Source: a virus
Strand: one strand, 5' to 3'
Length of the DNA stretch: 42,446 nt
Virus record (IMG/VR): IMGVR_UViG_3300044529_000039
Span: 1 to 42,446 of that record
In this document: positions 16,838-38,961 of the stretch, piece by piece
Layout: each line of letters begins with the position of its first letter
Numbering within the stretch: the first letter of the stretch is position 1
Made by a program: the position numbers and the translations under genes
The notes under the pieces: model-generated
Told to the model about the DNA's origin: nothing
Database searches by the model: none
What the model saw: the letters and a program-made list of their open reading frames with translations, nothing else

Positions 16838-17353
16838 ATGAGAGCAGGCGGCACAGCAGGCAGGGTGGTAGTTCTGAGCGATAGGGCCGTTCCAGCCGAG
16901 CCCGACCAAAGAACGGTCGGTTCGCACGGGGTGGTGCCAGCCGGCTTGACGTGCCTGGAACTGGTGGTGGCGGGGATACCGCCGAGCGGAAATCACTACA
17001 AGGTGCCGGGGCTGAAGTTTGCGGGTGGCGGCCGGCGGGCGTTCGGGTTTCGGCTGACGCGCGAGGCGCAGGACTTCCGCAACGCGGTGGCGCTTGCGTC
17101 CCGCGGCCGGACGATCGCGCCGCCGGCGCTGCCGCGGGGCCTGCGGGACAAGGTGCGCTACGCGCTGACGGTGACGGTGACCCTGGGGGCGGGGCAGCGG
17201 GGGGATGGGGACAACTTCTGGAAGTGCATCGCGGACAGCCTGCAGGCGGCAGGGGTGATCCACAGTGATGCGCGGGTGCGCCGGTGGGTGCTGACGGTGG
17301 AGGATGGCGACCGGGAGAACCCAAGGACCGAGATCTGCGCGGAGGTGCTGTGA
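16838..17353 (+). CDS. rusA: RusA-like Holliday junction resolvase
   Basis: The conserved core begins GIPPSGNHYK, the RusA-type N-terminal strand and loop, at about residue 48. The C-terminal part has GDGDNFWKCIADSLQAAGVI, with the aspartates expected to bind metal (D-x-D-N and A-D), then SDARV and a closing NPRTEI. RusA enzymes cut four-way junctions during late replication and recombination, which clears DNA for packaging. I chose the ATG at 16838 because GAGGCACGGG precedes it, as at other starts here; a GTG at 16787 is also in frame. The 45 residues before the core include a repeated DNA hairpin (16893-16927) and are not part of the family. The sigma-like gene follows with a TGATG overlap. 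Confidence 0.88.
   Translation: MRAGGTAGRVVVLSDRAVPAEPDQRTVGSHGVVPAGLTCLELVVAGIPPSGNHYKVPGLKFAGGGRRAFGFRLTREAQDFRNAVALASRGRTIAPPALPRGLRDKVRYALTVTVTLGAGQRGDGDNFWKCIADSLQAAGVIHSDARVRRWVLTVEDGDRENPRTEICAEVL
16893..16927. repeat. Hairpin repeat, copy 1 (within rusA 5' end)
   Basis: Contains CCGACC (16902-16907) and GGTCGG (16915-16920) around AAAGAAC, followed by TTCGCAC. Closely similar copies lie at 23100-23140 and 25519-25560. In rusA the repeat is read in a different codon frame from the other two. Confidence 0.8.
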
Positions 17354-17715
17354 TGGGGGCGCTGGCGGCGGTTCCGTTCGAGCGGGGGGAAGCGGTGCAG
17401 GACCGGCAGCTGGTGGTCTATGGCGTGCCGGTGGCGGGTGGGATGACGCTCGAGGAGATTGCGCAGGAGCTGGGGACCACGCGGCAGCAGGTATATGTGA
17501 TCCAGGAGCGGGCGATGCGCAAGCTGCGGAGGTCGCCGGAGGCGCGCGGGCTGCTGGAGTTTGTGAATTACGAGCTCGCCGACGCGCCGCGGGCGGTGAG
17601 CTTCTTTACGAAGATCAGCGGGCCGCGCGGGGCGCTGCTGCGGGCGCTGGTGGCGGAGCGCGATGGGCCGCTGGTGAAAGAATGGCAGGGTGAGGCAGGG
17701 AAGTGCAGGGGTTAG
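17353..17715 (+). CDS. Stand-alone sigma-70 region 4-like protein
   Basis: 120 residues from the ATG coupled to the rusA stop. Residues about 31-70 (MTLEEIAQELGTTRQQVYVI, then QERAMRKLRR) match the helix-turn-helix of sigma-70 region 4.2, which normally reads the -35 box and touches the beta flap. Regions 2 and 3 are absent. A protein with only this domain could redirect or block host RNA polymerase, or act as a late-gene activator. The C-terminal 45 residues have no recognisable domain. It might also be a simple DNA-binding protein of the same fold. It ends convergently with the leftward operon, overlapping by three to four bases. Confidence 0.75.
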   Translation: MGALAAVPFERGEAVQDRQLVVYGVPVAGGMTLEEIAQELGTTRQQVYVIQERAMRKLRRSPEARGLLEFVNYELADAPRAVSFFTKISGPRGALLRALVAERDGPLVKEWQGEAGKCRG

Positions 17716-19204: not shown

Positions 19205-19466
19205 GAGGTGGGATCCTTTCGAGATCGAGGATGGGGACGATGGGTTGCGGGTCGCCGATTGCTGCGTCCAGCATACCGCTGAGATGGGTGAAGCCAGGAG
19301 AGGCAGGGTCGGGCAGGGCGGTGCAGGGAGGGTCCGAGAGGCCCAGGGGCAGCGCCATGGTGCGGAGGGTGGGGTTGGCGCAGGAGATGTGGCGGACGCG
19401 GCAGCCGTCGATCTGCCAGCGGTGCCCGCGCTTGATGTGACCGGTGCAGTCGGCGCAGATTCTCAT
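19188..19466 (-). CDS. Small zinc-binding protein, unknown
   Basis: 92 residues starting MRICADCTGHIKRGHRWQID. The ATG overlaps the TGA of the gene upstream (ATGA), which decides the start. A CADC knuckle (residues 4-7) and CRVRHISC (about 22-29) could bind one zinc ion, as in small zinc-finger proteins that read host nucleic acid or bind proteins. The rest is Pro/Leu-rich. It overlaps the start of the next leftward gene by 17 bases. Confidence 0.6.
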   Translation of the reverse strand: MRICADCTGHIKRGHRWQIDGCRVRHISCANPTLRTMALPLGLSDPPCTALPDPASPGFTHLSGMLDAAIGDPQPIVPILDLERIPPHGYLF

Positions 19467-20110
19467 GGGACCAGCACCCGAACTTCGTCCCATGTCTTGA
19501 ATCCGAAGAACGCCAGGAAGTAGGGTTGCTTGCCGTCACGTGCGAGGATGTCTATGCCTTGAATCTCGGAGGCAGCTTCCGCCGCAGCCCCGGCCGCAGC
19601 CCCGGATGCCGCCGCGCCCGCCGCAGCCCACGTCGCAGCCCCCGCCGCAGCCCCGGATGCCGCCGCGCCCGCCGCAGCCCACGCCGCAGTCCACGCCGCA
19701 TCCCTCGCCAAGCCGCCCACCGCCGCATCCCTCGCCAAGCCGCCCACCGCCGCATCCCACGCCGCAGCCGAAAGCCCGTCCAGATGCAACCAGAACGCCA
19801 GCAGCAGCGGAGCCTTATCGCCTACGATCTGCTCAGGGTTGGACAGTACGATTTGCGGAGCGCCGCCTACCTTGTCGGTGACGTTGCGGAGTAGCACAGA
19901 ATGGGTGCGCGAGATCCCGAGAATCTTCGCCACCTCCGCGTCTGCGTTGAATTGCGTCATGGCGCGAAGCTGGTCGTCTGTGAATCCAGCGCAGTGCAGT
20001 ACATCGCCTTGCGCGCAATAGCAGCCCTCAGCGTCAATCAGGCTACCCCTGAATAACGGGCGGTCGCGTCCCGTCCAGCGTTCGATCATTGTTTCGATTG
20101 TGGGTGGCAT
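19463..20110 (-). CDS. Protein with Ala-rich tandem repeats
   Basis: 215 residues from the ATG at 20110, which follows AAAGGCACAGCT; an ATG 15 bases upstream is also in frame. The N-terminal half is globular: a TMIERWTGRDRPLFRGSLID start, an AEGCYCAQGDVLHCAG segment with three cysteines, and AEVAKILGISRTHSVLLRNV. After an AFWLHLDG segment comes a run of tandem Ala-rich repeats: two 9-residue units (AAVGGLARD) and two 17-residue units of the TWAAAGAAASGAAAGAA type. The C-terminus (YFLAFFGFKTWDEVRVLVP) is again ordered. I recall similar globular-plus-Ala-repeat proteins in phage and soil bacterial genomes, with no known function. Confidence 0.65.
   Translation of the reverse strand: MPPTIETMIERWTGRDRPLFRGSLIDAEGCYCAQGDVLHCAGFTDDQLRAMTQFNADAEVAKILGISRTHSVLLRNVTDKVGGAPQIVLSNPEQIVGDKAPLLLAFWLHLDGLSAAAWDAAVGGLARDAAVGGLARDAAWTAAWAAAGAAASGAAAGAATWAAAGAAASGAAAGAAAEAASEIQGIDILARDGKQPYFLAFFGFKTWDEVRVLVP
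19593..19748. repeat. Two tandem coding repeats (51-bp and 27-bp periods)
   Basis: A 40-bp block starting at 19593 recurs unchanged at 19644, a period of 51 bp (17 codons). GCCGCATCCCTCGCC and its following bases recur at 19695 and 19722, a period of 27 bp (9 codons). Periods are multiples of three, so copy-number change would keep the frame. Confidence 0.9.
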
Positions 20111-20121
20111 AGCTGTGCCTT

Positions 20122-20418
20122 TCAATTCCCGTAGTACGCCGCGGACCAGTCAGGGCGCGGGTTGGGGTTAGGGGTGGGGAGGATGAGGCGGGTGCGGGGG
20201 AGATTGACGCAGCGCCAGCAGCCCCAGAGGTCGCCGGCGGCCTTGGAGCCGCGGACGAGGTAGCCGTGGTCGTCATGCCGCTGGCCGGAGAAGGCGAGCG
20301 GGGTGTGGGGCCCGAGGCAGTCGCGGCGATACTGCAGCTGGCAGCAGCCGCCGGCGCGGTCGAAGGCCTGCTGGCGGCGGTGCTGGAGAGAGGCGCGGCG
20401 CTGGGCGATGGTGGGCAT
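20122..20418 (-). CDS. HNH-like endonuclease fold protein
   Basis: 98 residues. The pattern QAFDRAGGCCQLQYRRDCLG, then DDHGYLVRGS, then LWGCWRCVN resembles an HNH/zinc-finger nuclease: two zinc knuckles flank a DDHG motif in place of the DH pair, and the final C-x-x-C-x-N is typical of HNH. The metal and catalytic histidine would be in DDHG. There is no ribosome site upstream of the ATG at 20418; instead a GGGAATAGGG array abuts it. It overlaps nothing on its left (11-base gap). Free-standing HNH proteins in phages can be homing enzymes or packaging partners. Confidence 0.6.
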   Translation of the reverse strand: MPTIAQRRASLQHRRQQAFDRAGGCCQLQYRRDCLGPHTPLAFSGQRHDDHGYLVRGSKAAGDLWGCWRCVNLPRTRLILPTPNPNPRPDWSAAYYGN

Positions 20419-20803: not shown

Positions 20804-21160
20804 TTAGCTCGCGTAACTGCCGAGAACCAGACCGCGATCCTCGAGGCTGTCGGTATCGGGCTGTGGGCGACGGGAAGGGCGGCGACGGGGGGAGTCATCC
20901 TCCTGCGCGGCAACAAAGGCGCGCTGGGCCTGCCAGAAGGCTTCACAGCCAAGGCGCTTGTGGTCGGGGACGTTGCGGCAGGGGCAGCAGGGCGCGGTGA
21001 TTTCGGCTGCGATGCTCGCCAGAACAATGGGGCAAGCCGGCTTGTGGTAGCCGCGTCCGCCGCAATCGAGGCACTCGTCGCCGTGGTCTACGCCGCATTC
21101 GCGGCAGCAAAGCGTCTCCGGGTCGATGGTGCAGTCTGAGTCTTGGGTGTGGTTTGCCAT
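20804..21160 (-). CDS. Multi-knuckle zinc-binding protein
   Basis: 118 residues from the ATG at 21160, which follows GGAGGGGCATCT, a strong ribosome site. Cysteine clusters CCRECG, DECLDCGGRGYHKPAC and CCPC (residues about 18-70) suggest two or three zinc sites. One resembles the CxxCxGxG half of a DnaJ-type zinc finger (CLDCGGRGYHKPAC). The C-terminal third is basic, Arg-rich and polar (DDSPRRRPSRRPQPD). The gene is driven by the consensus-like promoter at 21189-21217 with its embedded palindrome, so its expression is probably repressible. Function unknown. Confidence 0.65.
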   Translation of the reverse strand: MANHTQDSDCTIDPETLCCRECGVDHGDECLDCGGRGYHKPACPIVLASIAAEITAPCCPCRNVPDHKRLGCEAFWQAQRAFVAAQEDDSPRRRPSRRPQPDTDSLEDRGLVLGSYAS

Positions 21161-21188: not shown

Positions 21189-21217
21189 ACACTATTCCAA
21201 GCCGCTTGGAATGTCAA
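21189..21217 (-). promoter_or_regulatory. Leftward sigma-70 promoter with a perfect palindrome as its spacer
   Basis: Reading leftward: TTGACA (21212-21217), then 17 bases (21195-21211), then TAGTGT (21189-21194). The spacer TTCCAAGCCGCTTGGAA is a perfect 8+8 palindrome with a central base. RNA polymerase and a dimeric repressor could not bind at once. A likely start site near 21182 gives a leader of about 22 bases before the ATG at 21160. Confidence 0.82.
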
Positions 21218-21398
21218 CAGGTATTTTCTGTTTCTTTTGGCGGGCGGCGCGGGCGGCGGCGGCGTTGGCCTGGGCGGCGCGGATCTTGGCCTGCGAGGTG
21301 GACTGCCCGCCCCTGCGGCCAATGGCGGCGAGGTGTTCGCGCAGAGTGGGCTGCGGCGGCAGGAGCAGCGTGGCGGGGGCTGGGGCGGGGTTCTTCAC
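21192..21398 (-). CDS. Small basic protein between two operator-bearing promoters
   Basis: 68 residues from a GTG at 21398. The sequence [26 protein letters not shown] and the following Ala/Arg-rich helix resemble small phage and bacterial proteins with a G-x-x-G-G-x-S-x-S-x-A-K motif, sometimes classed as DNA-binding. It is encoded between two promoters that contain the same CCAAGC-N-GCTTGG palindrome, so it is a candidate for the regulator that binds them, though the XRE-type protein at 23878 is another. It is basic enough to bind DNA; no helix-turn-helix is certain. Confidence 0.6.
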
Positions 21399-21405
21399 AG
21401 GCGCT

Positions 21406-21435
21406 ATTGTATACCGAAGCCGCTTGGATTACAAT
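21406..21435. promoter_or_regulatory. Overlapping divergent promoters around an imperfect operator
   Basis: Rightward: TTGTAT (21407-21412), 17 bases, TACAAT (21430-21435). Leftward: TTGTAA (21429-21434), 17 bases, TACAAT (21406-21411). The shared spacer ACCGAAGCCGCTTGGAT is a degenerate copy of the palindrome at 21195-21211. The whole 30-bp block is itself nearly palindromic, so the two promoters compete. The rightward start site would fall at about 21442. Confidence 0.8.
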
Positions 21436-21444
21436 AGGGAGATG

Positions 21445-21470
21445 CAGGGACGAGGGATAAGGGATAAGGG
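21445..21470. repeat. GGGATAAGGGATAAGG-type repeat array
   Basis: CAGGGACGAGGGATAAGGG and AATAAGGG-like units lie in the leader of the methyltransferase gene. It is the only array of this family found in a 5' leader rather than at a gene 3' end. Confidence 0.7.
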
Positions 21471-21549
21471 CACCACTGGCGCGGCTGGGCGAGACCCGCA
21501 CATCTACGTTGGTGGTGCTCCGCAGCCCACGGCGGGAATCTCTACACCC

Positions 21550-21587
21550 CGTGTCAAGCCCCCCAAGGCAAATAAATCTGTGGAAAA
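21550..21587 (+). repeat. 38-bp leader element, copy 2
   Basis: CGTGTCAAGCCCCCC, AAGGC, AAATAAATCTGTGGAAAA. This is the inverted match of 17863-17900. The GTG of CTGTGGA is the likely start of the methyltransferase gene. Confidence 0.82.
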
Positions 21588-22755
21588 GTGGCTGGTTCTG
21601 ACGGGCGATGTGCTGGCGAATCTGACCGCGATGCCGGCGGCGTCGGTGCGGTGCGTGGTGACGAGCCCACCCTATTGGGGCCTGCGCGACTACGGCGTTG
21701 AGGGGCAGATCGGGCTGGAGCCGACGCCCGCGGCGTACCTGGAGCGGATGGTGGCGGTCTTTCGCGAGGTGCGGCGGGTGCTGCGCGACGATGGCACCTG
21801 CTGGGTGAACATGGGGGACGGATATACGAGTGGCGGCAGGGCGACCTGGCGAAGCGGCGCAAGCGAAAATAAAGGTCAAGACGTGCAGAACGATCAGTCG
21901 CGGCCCGACACGCCACAAGGATTGAAACCGAAAGACATGCTGGGGATGCCGTGGCGGCTGGCGTTTGCGTTGCAGGAGGATGGTTGGTGGCTGCGGCAGG
22001 ACATCATCTGGTCCAAGCCCAACCCCATGCCGGAGAGCGTGACCGACCGCTGCACCAAGGCGCATGAGTACATCTTCCTGCTGACGAAGAGCGAGCGGTA
22101 CTTCTATGATGCCGAGGCGGTGAAGGAGCCGGCGAACGGCTGGAATGACAGCGCCATTGACGACGGCAAGAATGCCGAGGTTCACCCCAACGTGGGCAAG
22201 AAACGCGCACACCCGCGCGGGCCGGGGAACAAGACCCACAAGGGCACCTCAGCCTATGAGGGCGGCGCGGCTGAGCATCGGACGAAGGCGGGGCTGGTGG
22301 CGTATGCGGAGCGGCAGCGGGCGATTGATCGCAAAGCCGACGCCGAGATGGTTCACGGTAACAAGCCGGGACGAAGCGACGGGGGAGCCGCGTGCAATGC
22401 GCCGGGGCAACACCGCCGCAACAAGCGCAGCGTGTGGGAGATAGCGACGGAGCCGTATACGGAGGCGCACTTTGCGACCTTCCCGACCAAGCTGGTCGAG
22501 CCGTGCATCCTGGCCGGCAGCAAGCCTGGCGACGTGGTGCTGGACCCATTTAGCGGGTCAGGGACGACCGGCGTGGTGGCGCTGCGGCTGGGCCGGGAGT
22601 ACATCGGCATCGAGCTGAACCCGGAGTATGTGGCCATGAGCGAGCGCCGGCTGGCGACGTGGTGGAAGCGGCCAGCACGGCGCGCGAAGGGCACAGCCGG
22701 CGAGCATGCGCCGCTGTTCGCGAGTGATATGGAGCGAGAGGCGGTGCGGGTATGA
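21580..22755 (+). CDS. Beta-class DNA methyltransferase (N4-cytosine or N6-adenine)
   Basis: 391 residues from the GTG at 21580. The frame is open far upstream, but the core starts at [14 protein letters not shown]. The catalytic motif [12 protein letters not shown] lies near residue 27 and the SAM-binding motif [20 protein letters not shown] near residue 322: the order IV then I is that of the beta class. TSPPYW-type catalytic motifs are frequent in N4-cytosine enzymes, but some N6-adenine enzymes share it. The middle ([20 protein letters not shown] region) would hold target recognition. No partner restriction enzyme is adjacent, so it is a solitary phage enzyme that could protect DNA. ATG 21442 would be an alternative, leaderless start. 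Confidence 0.9.
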
Positions 22756-22800
22756 AGCCGCCGATTGTTCCACGTACTACTCCACATCTACAATCGAAGG

Positions 22801-23103
22801 ATGGGACGGCGAAGAAACCGAAGGTGCCGGTGCGGCAACACGCTGCGGGGCCGGGCGCAGAACAACTGCCGGGCGTGCCACGCGGCGTGGATGCGGGAGA
22901 ACCGTCCGGCGCTGAGCGACGAGGCGCGGCGAAGGGCGAACGCGCGCAGCTACGCGCACGTGTACCTGCGGCGGGGAAAGATCGCAAGAAAGCCGTGCGA
23001 GCGGTGCGGCAGCCCGGAGAGCCAGATGCACCACAGGGACTACGCCAGGCCGCTGGAGGTGACGTGGCTGTGCCGGTGGTGCCGGCAGGGCCAGATGAGC
23101 TGA
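22801..23103 (+). CDS. HNH-like zinc-finger protein
   Basis: 100 residues starting MGRRRNRRCRCGNTLRGRAQ. Cysteines form CxC...CxxC in the N-terminal part. The second half has PCERCGSPESQMHHRDYARP followed by WLCRWCRQ, the C-x-x-C-G ... H-H-x-D-Y ... W-L-C-x-x-C pattern of small phage HNH-like proteins. These are often encoded next to terminase genes, and some HNH proteins help DNA packaging or cut cos sites. The start follows an SD-poor AGG. The final 34 bases overlap the small terminase start. Confidence 0.78.
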   Translation: MGRRRNRRCRCGNTLRGRAQNNCRACHAAWMRENRPALSDEARRRANARSYAHVYLRRGKIARKPCERCGSPESQMHHRDYARPLEVTWLCRWCRQGQMS

Positions 23104-23633
23104 CCCATCCGAACCCGGCCAAAGTGCGGCCGGTTCGCACGAGTGGGGCGGCAAAGAAGCCCAAGGTTCCGGCGAAGCGCCCGGTGGGACGGCCGCCGAA
23201 GTACTCGGCGCGGCTGGCGGCGCGGGTGTGCAAGGCTATCGGCACACATGCTTTAGGCTTAGAGGCTTTGCGGCAGATGTTCAAGTGGTTTCCAAGTAAG
23301 ACGTGTATCTATCAGTGGCGGTGGGACTTCCCGGAGTTTGCGGAGATGTACGTGCGCGCGAGAGAGGCGCAGGCGCAGATCCTGGCGGATGAGCTGCAGG
23401 AGCTGGCGGACACGCCGAGGATGGGGCAGCGGGTGGAGATTGTGCGGGAGGGTGACGTCGAGACGTCGCGGCGGACGGTGGTGGAGGACATGGTGGCGCA
23501 CCGGCGGCTGCAGATCGATACCCGGAAGTTTATTGCGGTGAAGCTGCTGCCGCGGTTCGCGGACACGACGCGGCTGCAGGGACCGCAGGGCGGCGCGGTG
23601 GAGGTGGTGATCCGTTCAGCCATAGATGGCTGA
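23070..23633 (+). CDS. terS: Terminase small subunit-like protein
   Basis: 187 residues from a GTG at 23070 that follows GGAGGTGAC; GTG 23064 is an alternative. After about 45 linker residues (with the hairpin repeat) the family core appears: GRPPKYSARLAARVCKAIGT, a helix-turn-helix (LRQMFKWFPSKTCIYQWRWD), the helical YVRAREAQAQILADELQELA segment, and the RRLQIDTRKFIAVKLLPRF block typical of this small-terminase group. It binds the packaging site and loads the large subunit. The same frame is open upstream to 22752, but there the HNH-like gene in another frame is the real coding sequence. Confidence 0.82.
   Translation: MPVVPAGPDELTHPNPAKVRPVRTSGAAKKPKVPAKRPVGRPPKYSARLAARVCKAIGTHALGLEALRQMFKWFPSKTCIYQWRWDFPEFAEMYVRAREAQAQILADELQELADTPRMGQRVEIVREGDVETSRRTVVEDMVAHRRLQIDTRKFIAVKLLPRFADTTRLQGPQGGAVEVVIRSAIDG
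23100..23140. repeat. Hairpin repeat, copy 2 (within terS 5' end)
   Basis: CTGACCCATCCGAACCC leads into CCGGCC (23115-23120), AAAGTGC, GGCCGG (23128-23133) and TTCGCAC. Compared with copies 1 and 3, the stem has A:T replaced by G:C on both sides, which keeps pairing. Confidence 0.85.
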
Positions 23634-23690: not shown

Positions 23691-23855
23691 TCAGCGCGTG
23701 TGCAGCAGGGCCGGAAGGTAGCCGAGCAGGATGGCCAGGCACCAGCAGGCCATGCCCAGCCATCCGTAGGTGACGCGACGGGCGGGGACGTTGAAGCCGG
23801 CGAGGCAGAGCAGGACCAGCGCGGCGAGCAGGAGAAGGAAGGGGAACGGGTTCAT
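23691..23855 (-). CDS. Small two-pass membrane protein
   Basis: 54 residues encoded leftward from the ATG at 23855, preceded by AGGGGTACTTTCC. Two hydrophobic segments, MNPFPFLLLLAALVLLCLAG and TYGWLGMACWCLAILLGYL (cut), are joined by FNVPARRV. It lies alone on the minus strand inside a rightward operon, with its start 22 bases from that of the regulator gene on the other strand. It resembles small bacterial inner-membrane proteins; it could be a leftward holin-like or host-membrane effector. Function unknown. Confidence 0.6.
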   Translation of the reverse strand: MNPFPFLLLLAALVLLCLAGFNVPARRVTYGWLGMACWCLAILLGYLPALLHTR

Positions 23856-23877
23856 GGAAAGTACCCCTGGAAGTGAG

Positions 23878-24351
23878 ATGCGGCGGGAGACGGTGAAGTG
23901 CAGCGCGTGCGGGCTGAACCAGTACCGGACGGCGAAGGATGTGTGCCGGCGGTGCGGGGTGTCGACGGGCCCGGAGCCTGAGCCGGCGGCGCCGGACCTG
24001 AGCGTTTGTGACCCAGTTGCAGAGGTTGGGCCACCCAAGGCAGCTGGCAGGACGATGAAGCCGAAGGACGCGGTTGCGCGGGTGATGCTGCGGATGCGCT
24101 ACATGGCAGGACTAAGCCAGCGCGAGGCTGAGGATCTGAGCGGACTGCAGCGAACCTACTTCAGCAAGGTGGAGAACGGTGGTGCTGCGCCGCAGATCGA
24201 TTCCCTCGTGAAATTGACCGAGCTGTACGGGCAAACGATGGAGGGTTTTGGGCGGCTGCTGGATGCGGAGATGCGCGGCGAAGGTGGTCCACTGCCGCCG
24301 AAGCCGGCGGGCAAGCCACGGGGCAGAAAGAGCTGGCGCGTGATAGAGTGA
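23878..24351 (+). CDS. Zinc-finger plus XRE-type helix-turn-helix regulator
   Basis: 157 residues from the ATG at 23878 (GGAAGTGAG before it); the in-frame ATG 23854 is possible. Residues about 7-24 hold a zinc ribbon (CSACGLNQYRTAKDVCRRCG). A Pro-rich linker follows. Residues about 75-130 form a Cro/CI-type helix-turn-helix: GLSQREAEDLSGLQRTYFSK, then VENGGAAPQIDSLVKLTELY. The tail is basic and Pro/Gly-rich. Such proteins repress promoters through palindromes, and the operator pair at 21.2-21.4 kb is a possible target. It lies between the terminase small subunit and a small virion-like gene. Confidence 0.8.
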   Translation: MRRETVKCSACGLNQYRTAKDVCRRCGVSTGPEPEPAAPDLSVCDPVAEVGPPKAAGRTMKPKDAVARVMLRMRYMAGLSQREAEDLSGLQRTYFSKVENGGAAPQIDSLVKLTELYGQTMEGFGRLLDAEMRGEGGPLPPKPAGKPRGRKSWRVIE

Positions 24352-24368
24352 TTGGCGTGAGGTGAGGG

Positions 24369-24719
24369 ATGCCGCTGTTCAGCGTTGCGGGGATGACGTC
24401 GTTGGCGCCGGGCGAGAAGCTGGCGGTGCTGAATGCGGAGAACCTGGCCTCGGCGGCTGCGGCGCAGGGTGTGGCCTTTGCGCCGATCGGTGGCGGACCG
24501 GTGCCGCTGACCGTGCTGAACGCCACCGCGCAGACGGTGACGCTGCAGGCCAGCGGGGACGGGACCAACTGGTATCCGTATGTGGATGCGGACGAGCAGG
24601 CGGTGACGGTGGCCACCGTCACCGCGCTGCAGGTGCTTGTGAGCCCGGGGCTGTTCTACCGGGCGTACAACGGCAGCGGGTCCGCGATTACGGCGGGAAC
24701 GATCTGGTTCAGCCGGTAA
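24369..24719 (+). CDS. Small beta-rich virion-like protein
   Basis: 116 residues, no cysteine. The pattern LTVLNATAQTVTLQASGDGT, NWYPYVDADEQ, then VSPGLFYRAYNGSGS is the beta-sandwich signature I associate with small phage surface or decoration proteins. The initiation region GAGGTGAGGG precedes the ATG. A TGATAGAGT-like extended -10 lies just upstream (24341). Its location among DNA-packaging genes fits a head-associated accessory protein, but a non-virion role is not excluded. Confidence 0.55.
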   Translation: MPLFSVAGMTSLAPGEKLAVLNAENLASAAAAQGVAFAPIGGGPVPLTVLNATAQTVTLQASGDGTNWYPYVDADEQAVTVATVTALQVLVSPGLFYRAYNGSGSAITAGTIWFSR

Positions 24720-24730
24720 AGGACGAGGAC

Positions 24731-25483
24731 GTGAACGACGCGAAGCCCCTGTGTATCGACCTGTTCTGCGGCCTGGGCGGATGGTCTGAGGCGTTCATCG
24801 CCGAGGGCTATGAGTGCCGGGGCTATGACATTGAGGCGCATGAATACGGCGAGCAGAAGTATCCCGGCACGCTGATCCTGCGCGATGTTCGTTCCATTCA
24901 CGGCAGCGAGTTCGCGGATGCGGCGATCATCGTGGCGAGCCCACCGTGCCAGGCGTACAGCTACCGGGCGATGCCGTGGAGCCGCGCGAAGGCGCTGCCG
25001 CCACCGGACAACACGCTGTTCAACGAGTGCTTCCGCATCCAGCGGGAGGCGAGCGAGGCGGCGGGGCGGTACATCCCGATGGTGGTGGAGAACGTGCGCG
25101 GGGCGCAGAAGTGGGTTGGGCCCTCAAAATACAACTATGGCAGTTTTCATCTTTGGGGCGATATTCCCGCGCTTATGCCAGTTCCGGCGAAGGTCACAAA
25201 ATCAAGACACGGCTCATGCAAGCGACTACCCGGCGCAAAAGGGGGACGAATATCAGGATGGCCGCACATCGTTGAAAATGAAGGGATAAAGCAATCGGGA
25301 ATTGGGGGCCCAAGGCAAAACGGTAAAGGCGATGCATGGTTCCAGAATGGAGCCGCCGCACATGGAAGCAAATCACTCCAGCGCAAGGCAGCGAGCGCGA
25401 TGATTGCCAAAATCCCATACCCACTGGCGCAGCACATCGCGCGGACGTACTACCCGAGGCCCAGGCTGGTAGAGGCCGGATGA
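24731..25483 (+). CDS. C5-cytosine DNA methyltransferase (compact)
   Basis: 250 residues from a GTG preceded by AGGACGAGGAC. Motif I is DLFCGLGGWSEAFIAEGYEC (residues about 9-28), motif IV ASPPCQAYSYRAM (catalytic Cys near residue 73) and motif VI VVENVRG (near residue 119). The C-terminal PLAQHIARTYYP is the usual motif X-like helix. The classic RxR of motif VIII and a large target-recognition domain are not evident; the enzyme is short for the family. It transfers a methyl group to cytosine in DNA. The stop overlaps the terminase start (ATGA). Confidence 0.87.
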   Translation: MNDAKPLCIDLFCGLGGWSEAFIAEGYECRGYDIEAHEYGEQKYPGTLILRDVRSIHGSEFADAAIIVASPPCQAYSYRAMPWSRAKALPPPDNTLFNECFRIQREASEAAGRYIPMVVENVRGAQKWVGPSKYNYGSFHLWGDIPALMPVPAKVTKSRHGSCKRLPGAKGGRISGWPHIVENEGIKQSGIGGPRQNGKGDAWFQNGAAAHGSKSLQRKAASAMIAKIPYPLAQHIARTYYPRPRLVEAG

Positions 25484-38036: not shown

Positions 38037-38044
38037 AAACTTGA

Positions 38045-38072
38045 CGGGCGGCTGGAGAAATCCGGCCGCCCG
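38045..38072 (+). other. 12-bp hairpin with GAAA loop after the coat gene
   Basis: CGGGCGGCTGGA (38045-38056), loop GAAA, TCCGGCCGCCCG (38061-38072): 12 consecutive pairs, one of them T-G. No T-run follows, so it is not a classical intrinsic terminator. It may protect the 3' end of the coat mRNA, stall polymerase, or act as a processing site. A TTGACG at 38041 overlaps its left arm. Confidence 0.75.
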
Positions 38073-38081
38073 TGCTAGTCT
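38073..38081 (+). promoter_or_regulatory. Extended -10 promoter, weak candidate
   Basis: TGCTAGTCT directly follows the hairpin and lies about 20 bases before the Dam-type methyltransferase ATG. The -10 match is poor. Listed because it fits the pattern of similar sites before other head genes. Confidence 0.3.
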
Positions 38082-38100
38082 GTGGGCACGGAGAACGTGC

Positions 38101-38961
38101 ATGGCCACGCCAGAACGACCCATTTTGCGATACCACGGCGGAAAGTGGGTGCTGGCCCCATGGATCATCGCTCACATGCCCGCGCATCGCGTTTATGTAA
38201 AACCCTTTGGGGGCGCAGCCTCTGTTTTACTGCGGAAACCGCGCGCATATAGCGAGGTTTACAACGATCTTGACGGCGAAGTGGTGAATCTCTTCCGCGT
38301 GGCCCGCGACGAGGGTGAAAAACTCCGCAAGTTGCTGGAAATGACGCCATTTTCCCGGCAAGACTATCTGACAGCATGGGAACCAGCGAACGATCCGGCA
38401 GAACAAGCCCGGAGGACGGTAGTGCGGTCATTTATGGGCTTCGGGAGCGCGGCTGTGACAAAGCAGCGAGCCCCGGAGTCCAGGAGCCGTGGAGGGCTCG
38501 CGCTGACGGGTTTCCGCGCCAATAGCAACAAGTCAGGGACCACACCCGCACACGATTGGAAGAATTTGCCCGACGTCTTCCCTGCGATCATTGATCGGCT
38601 GCGCGGGGTTGTAATCGAGAATCGGCCGGCCGAGCAAATTATTGCCTCCCACGATGGATTGGAGACGCTGCACTATGTGGATCCGCCGTATGTGGCCGCA
38701 ACGCGGGACAAGGGCGGAGATTACCGTCACGAGATGAGCGACGACGACCACCGGCTGCTGGCTGTGGTCCTGCGTGGTGTGAAGGGGATGGTGATGCTCT
38801 CCGGCTATGACTGCGCGCTGTATGGCGAACTGTATGAAGGCTGGCAGCGCATTGAGCGTACAGAGCCAGCCGAGGACGCGCGGAAGCGGGTTGAATTTCT
38901 CTGGTTCAACGCTGCCGCGTGGGAACGCAGACCGCAAATGAGTCTGGCAGGTGCAGCATGA
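38101..38961 (+). CDS. Dam-type (alpha-class) N6-adenine DNA methyltransferase
   Basis: 286 residues from the ATG at 38101 (GGAGAACGTGC before it). ILRYHGGKWVLAPWIIAHMP opens the family core. Motif I is VYVKPFGGAASVLL (about residue 30), where the usual Glu is Lys. NDLDGEVVNLF follows, and motif IV is HYVDPPYV (near residue 194). The order I then IV is that of alpha-class or Dam enzymes. It transfers a methyl group to adenine. Codon use is less GC-biased than in its neighbours, a sign of separate origin. Located between coat and virion genes, an unusual place. The next gene overlaps the stop. Confidence 0.9.
   Translation: MATPERPILRYHGGKWVLAPWIIAHMPAHRVYVKPFGGAASVLLRKPRAYSEVYNDLDGEVVNLFRVARDEGEKLRKLLEMTPFSRQDYLTAWEPANDPAEQARRTVVRSFMGFGSAAVTKQRAPESRSRGGLALTGFRANSNKSGTTPAHDWKNLPDVFPAIIDRLRGVVIENRPAEQIIASHDGLETLHYVDPPYVAATRDKGGDYRHEMSDDDHRLLAVVLRGVKGMVMLSGYDCALYGELYEGWQRIERTEPAEDARKRVEFLWFNAAAWERRPQMSLAGAA

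Follow-up and report, generated by a model that had tools for sequence, protein, structure and literature searches.

The window analysed here comprises the full 42,446 bases of an IMG/VR virus record. It carries two neighbouring sites at which a palindrome built on the same core, CNAAGCSGCTTNG, is centred in the 17-bp spacer of predicted promoters, and between them lies the gene of a 68-aa protein with a KGG motif (21192-21398, minus strand). We consider it likely that this KGG protein binds CNAAGCSGCTTNG as a dimer and represses three promoters, namely its own, that of the methyltransferase/terminase transcript, and that of a gene for a 118-aa protein. What the sequences show directly is where the sites lie, in which register they stand to the promoters, and that the palindrome accompanies KGG sequences in unrelated genetic elements; what is new here would be an unnamed putative DNA-binding module together with its operator. 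If this reading is true, a motif carried by proteins without significant hits in the families of Pfam, PHROGs, or NCBIfam would gain a function, sequence-specific DNA binding; the predicted operator would become usable for finding KGG regulons in phages, plasmids, and chromosomes; and small phage regulators would be linked to toxin–antitoxin autoregulation.

Two palindrome-filled promoter spacers around a small gene

The genes of this region diverge from an intergenic stretch, accessory genes pointing leftward and a block of DNA methyltransferase, terminase subunits, and portal pointing rightward. To the right, the first gene after the operator–promoter is an N6/N4 DNA methyltransferase (21442-22755, plus strand), followed in the predicted transcript by the terminase small subunit (22752-23633, plus strand), both assigned by family matches. 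To the left, a Cys-rich protein of 118 aa and unassigned function (20804-21160, minus strand), whose gene has a Shine–Dalgarno sequence, had no match in the family searches and no relatives in viral contigs. Farther on the same strand, the ORF at 19463-20125 contains a low-complexity stretch of alanine/glycine/tryptophan repeats. It may also be mentioned that this 42-kb phage has three DNA methyltransferases, at 21442-22755 (N6/N4), 24362-25483, and 38041-38961, the types found being N6/N4, C5, and, for the third, a match to phrog_56.

Operator–promoter 1 (21189-21217, minus strand) reads TTGACA-17-TAGTGT with the spacer TTCCAAGCGGCTTGGAA, is backed by its sequence, by shuffles, and by the family consensus, and is predicted to drive the leftward accessory genes, beginning with that of the 118-aa protein. 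Its operator is a perfect palindrome of 19 bp (21194-21212) that overlaps the stop codon of the KGG gene, the site as a whole covering the last codons and the stop of this 68-aa ORF. Only one perfect palindrome of the window is longer, namely GCGGTGACGGTGGCCACCGTCACCGC, which measures 26 bp (24600-24625) and lies within the ORF at 24369-24719. Site 2 is a near-palindrome of 34 bp (21404-21437), CTATTGTAT-ACCGAAGCCGCTTGG-ATTACAATAG, with the core CGAAGCCGCTTGG at 21415-21427 and outer 8-bp arms that are perfect over the 34 bp, and it holds a divergent promoter pair. The rightward promoter, which is the one in the family register, reads TTGTAT-17-TACAAT (21407-21435, plus strand), and the leftward one TTGTAA-17-TACAAT (21406-21434, minus strand), so that the two spacers are offset by one base. 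The ATG of the methyltransferase (21442) stands 6 nt past the rightward -10 and the GTG of the KGG gene (21398) 7 nt past the leftward -10, from which both transcripts of site 2 would be leaderless or nearly so. The -10 of site 1 matches TATAAT at only three of six positions, as does the rightward -35 of site 2 with TTGACA, which explains why a consensus scanner lists only the leftward promoter of site 2.

Both sites match exactly the pattern TTG-N5-CNAAGCSGCTTNG-N2-TANNNT, written in full TTGNNNNNCNAAGCSGCTTNGNNTANNNT, which occurs twice in the window and in none of 100 shuffles, while the core alone occurs twice for 0.06 expected. In the same vein, the spacer palindromes of the window reach a score of 8, which was absent from 20 shuffles, a score of 7 arising 0.25 times per shuffled window. 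The claim of an earlier note on this DNA, that a palindrome fills the 17-bp spacer in two neighbouring promoters, is therefore borne out by the promoter-plus-core matches, and both palindromes that it described are present, albeit with other lengths (19 bp at site 1, and 34 bp instead of 30 at site 2). Its description of site 2 as a degenerate form needs correction, since site 2 matches the conserved core as exactly as site 1 does; the perfect palindrome of site 1 may be bound more tightly, as the note predicts, with both sites matching the core fully.

The core and KGG genes in other contigs

When viral contigs were scanned for the promoter with its core, one match was obtained (L036), with a start codon 6 nt past the -10; a looser scan yielded 16 contigs and a genome scan six more matches, giving 22 in total. 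Ten matches inside apparent genes were set aside, and the 12 contigs kept besides the window were hand-picked for a promoter-like position outside a convincing gene, before the KGG genes had been noticed. This sorting was made partly by eye, L040, L043, and several other contigs also overlapping some ORF of at least 70 aa. Eight of the matches set aside simply lie within apparent genes (L038, L039, L041, L042, L046, L053, L054, and L056), and the other two, in L037 and L055 (GC 0.72 and 0.68), were discarded for ORF overlap and for a different repeated motif, CTTGGACAAG. These two GC-rich contigs, one from Kitasatospora and one viral, display TTGCTT-N2-CCAAGCSGCTTGG-N2-TANNNT (L037:3176-3204, L055:5231-5259) with CTTGGACAAG-like repeats nearby, perhaps the mark of another regulator. 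Another spacer-filling palindrome with a different core, TTGCTA-TTCAATCGGGCCGATTG-TATGAT, was seen in a terminase-related phage (L013:588-616).

In the 12 further contigs, the 13-bp core is centred in a 17-bp promoter spacer at promoter-like positions. In all 13 contigs, window included, the bases of the -35 left unconstrained by the pattern are ACA, CAA, CCA, or ATA, position 6 being always A, and positions 7 and 21 of the 29-mer are complementary in 10 of the 13, with four types of pairs (p 3e-4), which fits a symmetric binder. Seven promoters, among them the rightward one of the window, have their ATG exactly 6 nt past the -10, in a leaderless-like arrangement. The exact 17-bp palindrome has seven matches in viral contigs, all of which were taken as chance because each lies inside an ORF judged coding.

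The KGG motif spans about 35 residues of small basic proteins (YLxxIGxKGGxxxSxAKxxAxRxNGxxGGRP), the stand-alone proteins being about 43-70 aa long. KGG genes are present in 12 of the 13 site-bearing contigs, window included, the one of L040 falling just beyond the search expression and being counted by eye, and in none of the 43 contigs taken for comparison (440 kb in all; Fisher 2e-11), which were fetched by terminase, by the exact palindrome, or as set-aside matches and are not a random phage sample. The exception is L044, where the site is present and no KGG gene was recognised. The KGG gene may follow the site directly, come later in the gene string, or immediately precede the site, which then overlaps its stop codon; in several contigs it occupies the second or third place of the operon or is as much as 2.7 kb distant. 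A KGG gene flanked by sites, one upstream and one at or just behind the stop codon, is seen in the window, L050, and L002, the last of which was found through KGG similarity alone; the upstream site of L050 has one mismatch, and the sites of L002 have two and one. The two features of the KGG operator family, a spacer-centred core and an adjoining KGG gene, are thus found in the window, the former at both sites and the latter between them.

The 68-aa protein, a predicted DNA-binding autorepressor, has two predicted helices (residues 19-31 and 36-57), and neither an HTH_3 domain nor any family match was detected in it by Pfam and other family searches; it has no DUF2442 domain and consists of the KGG part only. 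The Pfam family PF10685 (KGG, a stress-induced repeat motif) shares the KGG letters with the KGG proteins over a short stretch of 10 residues, but the match (E 0.04-0.2) is below the cut-off, so that the two are not the same family by that test. No match was returned by tblastn of the KGG proteins against the phage collection. The structure model of the 68-aa protein shows two helices around the conserved GG in an arrangement of low confidence (pTM 0.35, and 0.31 for a relative), a fold search with the KGG protein model found no match among solved structures, and the solved DUF2442 structures stop short of the KGG tail. The literature searched, which was covered in part, offered no description of the KGG motif or of its operator.

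KGG-tailed antitoxins and chromosomal KGG genes

A tblastn search of plasmids with a KGG protein led to DUF2442 proteins that end in the KGG motif as a C-terminal tail. At ten such plasmid loci, picked regardless of the site, the DUF4160–DUF2442 operon is mostly preceded at short distance by a AACCYAAGCNGCTTRGGTT-type palindrome, and one of these operons, L100, has the exact core at its promoter. In a set made of plasmid loci and further loci from Pseudomonadota genomes, the strict pattern lies ahead of 12 of 23 KGG-tailed DUF2442 genes and of none of 32 tail-less ones (Fisher 3e-6), a contrast of tail plus lineage given that the tail-less proteins form a more distant branch. The palindromes next to KGG-tailed antitoxins vary at their centre (15-19 bp), and no single strict site covers the family. 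As to the function of DUF2442 antitoxins, the one of dhiTA, which may or may not carry a KGG tail, acts in trans to bring down the activity of its promoter by about 50%, and more so with the toxin (PMC8198452), and in Thermus a plasmid could not be established once its DUF2442 gene was deleted (PMC12724237).

The reverse test started from KGG ORFs identified by profile in 289 Verrucomicrobiota genomes, fetched blind to the site, and used the pattern of the antitoxin set with its right-hand end slightly loosened. This pattern was found upstream of 10 of 26 KGG genes, for 0.2 expected, and of none of 34 control ORFs, some of the matched genes encoding, once more, antitoxin-like proteins that end in a KGG tail. 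A generic palindrome score gave a weak signal in this set (26 loci, combined p 0.004, with 5 of 28 controls passing 0.05) because the spacing varies. Of the sites considered here, on which no spacer position was imposed, 16 of 27 have their palindrome in the middle of a 16-18-bp promoter spacer. Members of a second KGG subfamily, IGxKGGxKSRRxLS (about 90-99 aa), show ATCATAAGCNGCTTATGAT-like palindromes immediately before the start codon; in Verrucomicrobiota they are L155, L156, L163, L168, L169, L177, and L179. A host-wide Verrucomicrobiota regulon was rejected, the core pattern occurring in the chromosomes of only 1 of 388 genomes.

Proposed repression and competing readings

Because the KGG motif is common to proteins whose promoters share the palindrome, it probably serves as the DNA-binding module, which would make the 68-aa protein the likely binder in the window. 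On this basis, we somewhat favour the broader idea that the KGG motif is an undescribed minimal DNA-binding module, used in phage regulators and in DUF2442 tails, that recognises a spacer palindrome. In the window, the KGG protein would bind CNAAGCSGCTTNG, probably as a symmetric dimer, and its presence in both spacers should keep RNA polymerase off three promoters at once, since the sites lie between -35 and -10; repression by exclusion of RNA polymerase is established for spacer operators. Its own leftward promoter would be shut, resulting in autorepression of the KGG gene, the divergent methyltransferase/terminase promoter would be shut by the same binding, and the leftward promoter at the KGG stop codon, which would drive the 118-aa gene, would be shut as well. 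From sequence we infer that the protein binds and dimerises, that it represses instead of activating, and when such a switch would act in infection. That one protein may serve a shared spacer operator at both sites, and thereby control the methyltransferase transcript on the right together with the operon on the left, had been proposed in the earlier note, and both proposals gain support from the three contrasts given above (12/13 versus 0/43, 12/23 versus 0/32, and 10/26 versus 0.2 expected). The flanking palindromic positions differ between elements, and these differences may set operator specificity, hence immunity between related elements.

This arrangement can be compared with known systems. 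Lambda-type repressors are small phage-encoded dimers that control divergent promoters through 17-bp odd palindromes within them. The window resembles them in its spacer-length palindrome, its divergent promoters, and its small proposed binder, but the latter belongs to proteins of about 45-70 aa without recognisable HTH_3, and there is no multi-site cooperative array. A lysis/lysogeny-type switch had also been suggested, whereas no integrase, repressor/integrase module, or other lysogeny module was seen among the window proteins scanned, which represent part of the ORFs. The C proteins of restriction–modification systems are HTH proteins with other C-boxes; like them, the KGG protein is a small candidate autoregulator adjoining a DNA methyltransferase at divergent promoters, but the small protein lacks HTH_3 and no restriction enzyme was found beside the methyltransferase among the genes scanned. 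A further comparison is with DUF4160–DUF2442 systems (dhiTA; PMC8198452, PMC12724237), whose KGG-tailed members have the same palindrome at their promoter and whose antitoxin represses its own promoter; the phage protein differs in being reduced to the KGG part, since it lacks a DUF2442 domain and has no DUF4160 toxin as neighbour.

Could another regulator, from the host or an unrecognised phage protein, bind the palindrome, the KGG genes being mere frequent neighbours or targets? The site of L044 without a recognised KGG gene and the KGG genes that come second or third would agree with this, binding by KGG proteins being our own deduction, but we hold it to be unlikely, because the link extends from phages to antitoxin operons on plasmids of Cyanobacteriota and Pseudomonadota and to chromosomes of Verrucomicrobiota, with KGG as the common factor, because tail-less DUF2442 antitoxins lack the site, and because the rarity of the core pattern in Verrucomicrobiota genomes argues against a wide host regulon there. 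Of the two binders that the earlier note had put forward, the small basic protein is retained, in view of the KGG genes of the site-bearing contigs. The other, the XRE-type protein at 23770-24351, does match a helix-turn-helix domain (Pfam HTH_3 1e-7), yet nothing links it to the sites: its gene stands within the rightward block at a distance of 2.4 kb, no relative of it occurs in the other site-bearing contigs or the records searched, and a close-relative search found none in viral contigs, which makes it a highly improbable binder.

As for site 1 taken separately, it would very unlikely be just the intrinsic terminator of the 68-aa gene with a secondary likeness to site 2. A scanner lists there an 8-bp stem closed by a 3-nt loop, with AGTGTTTTCT after it, at the stop codon and with a hairpin z-score of -2.4, but the T tract is weak (an interrupted TTTT), another fold wins in a longer stretch, no T tract accompanies the same core at the divergent promoter of site 2, and in other contigs the core lies in promoters ahead of genes; a double role as operator and terminator is possible. 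A chance likeness of two AT-rich promoters with palindromic spacers is barely credible: a palindrome with 9-bp arms is by itself not rare in 42 kb, but it is already contradicted by the excess of promoter-plus-core matches over shuffles and by the way the core returns in unrelated elements that have KGG genes. We thus retain the KGG protein as the preferred binder of both sites. Finally, the window encodes a 120-aa protein with a match to sigma-70 region 4 (17353-17715, plus strand; Pfam 7e-8), and contig L044 likewise has a small sigma-4-like ORF (2161-2409).
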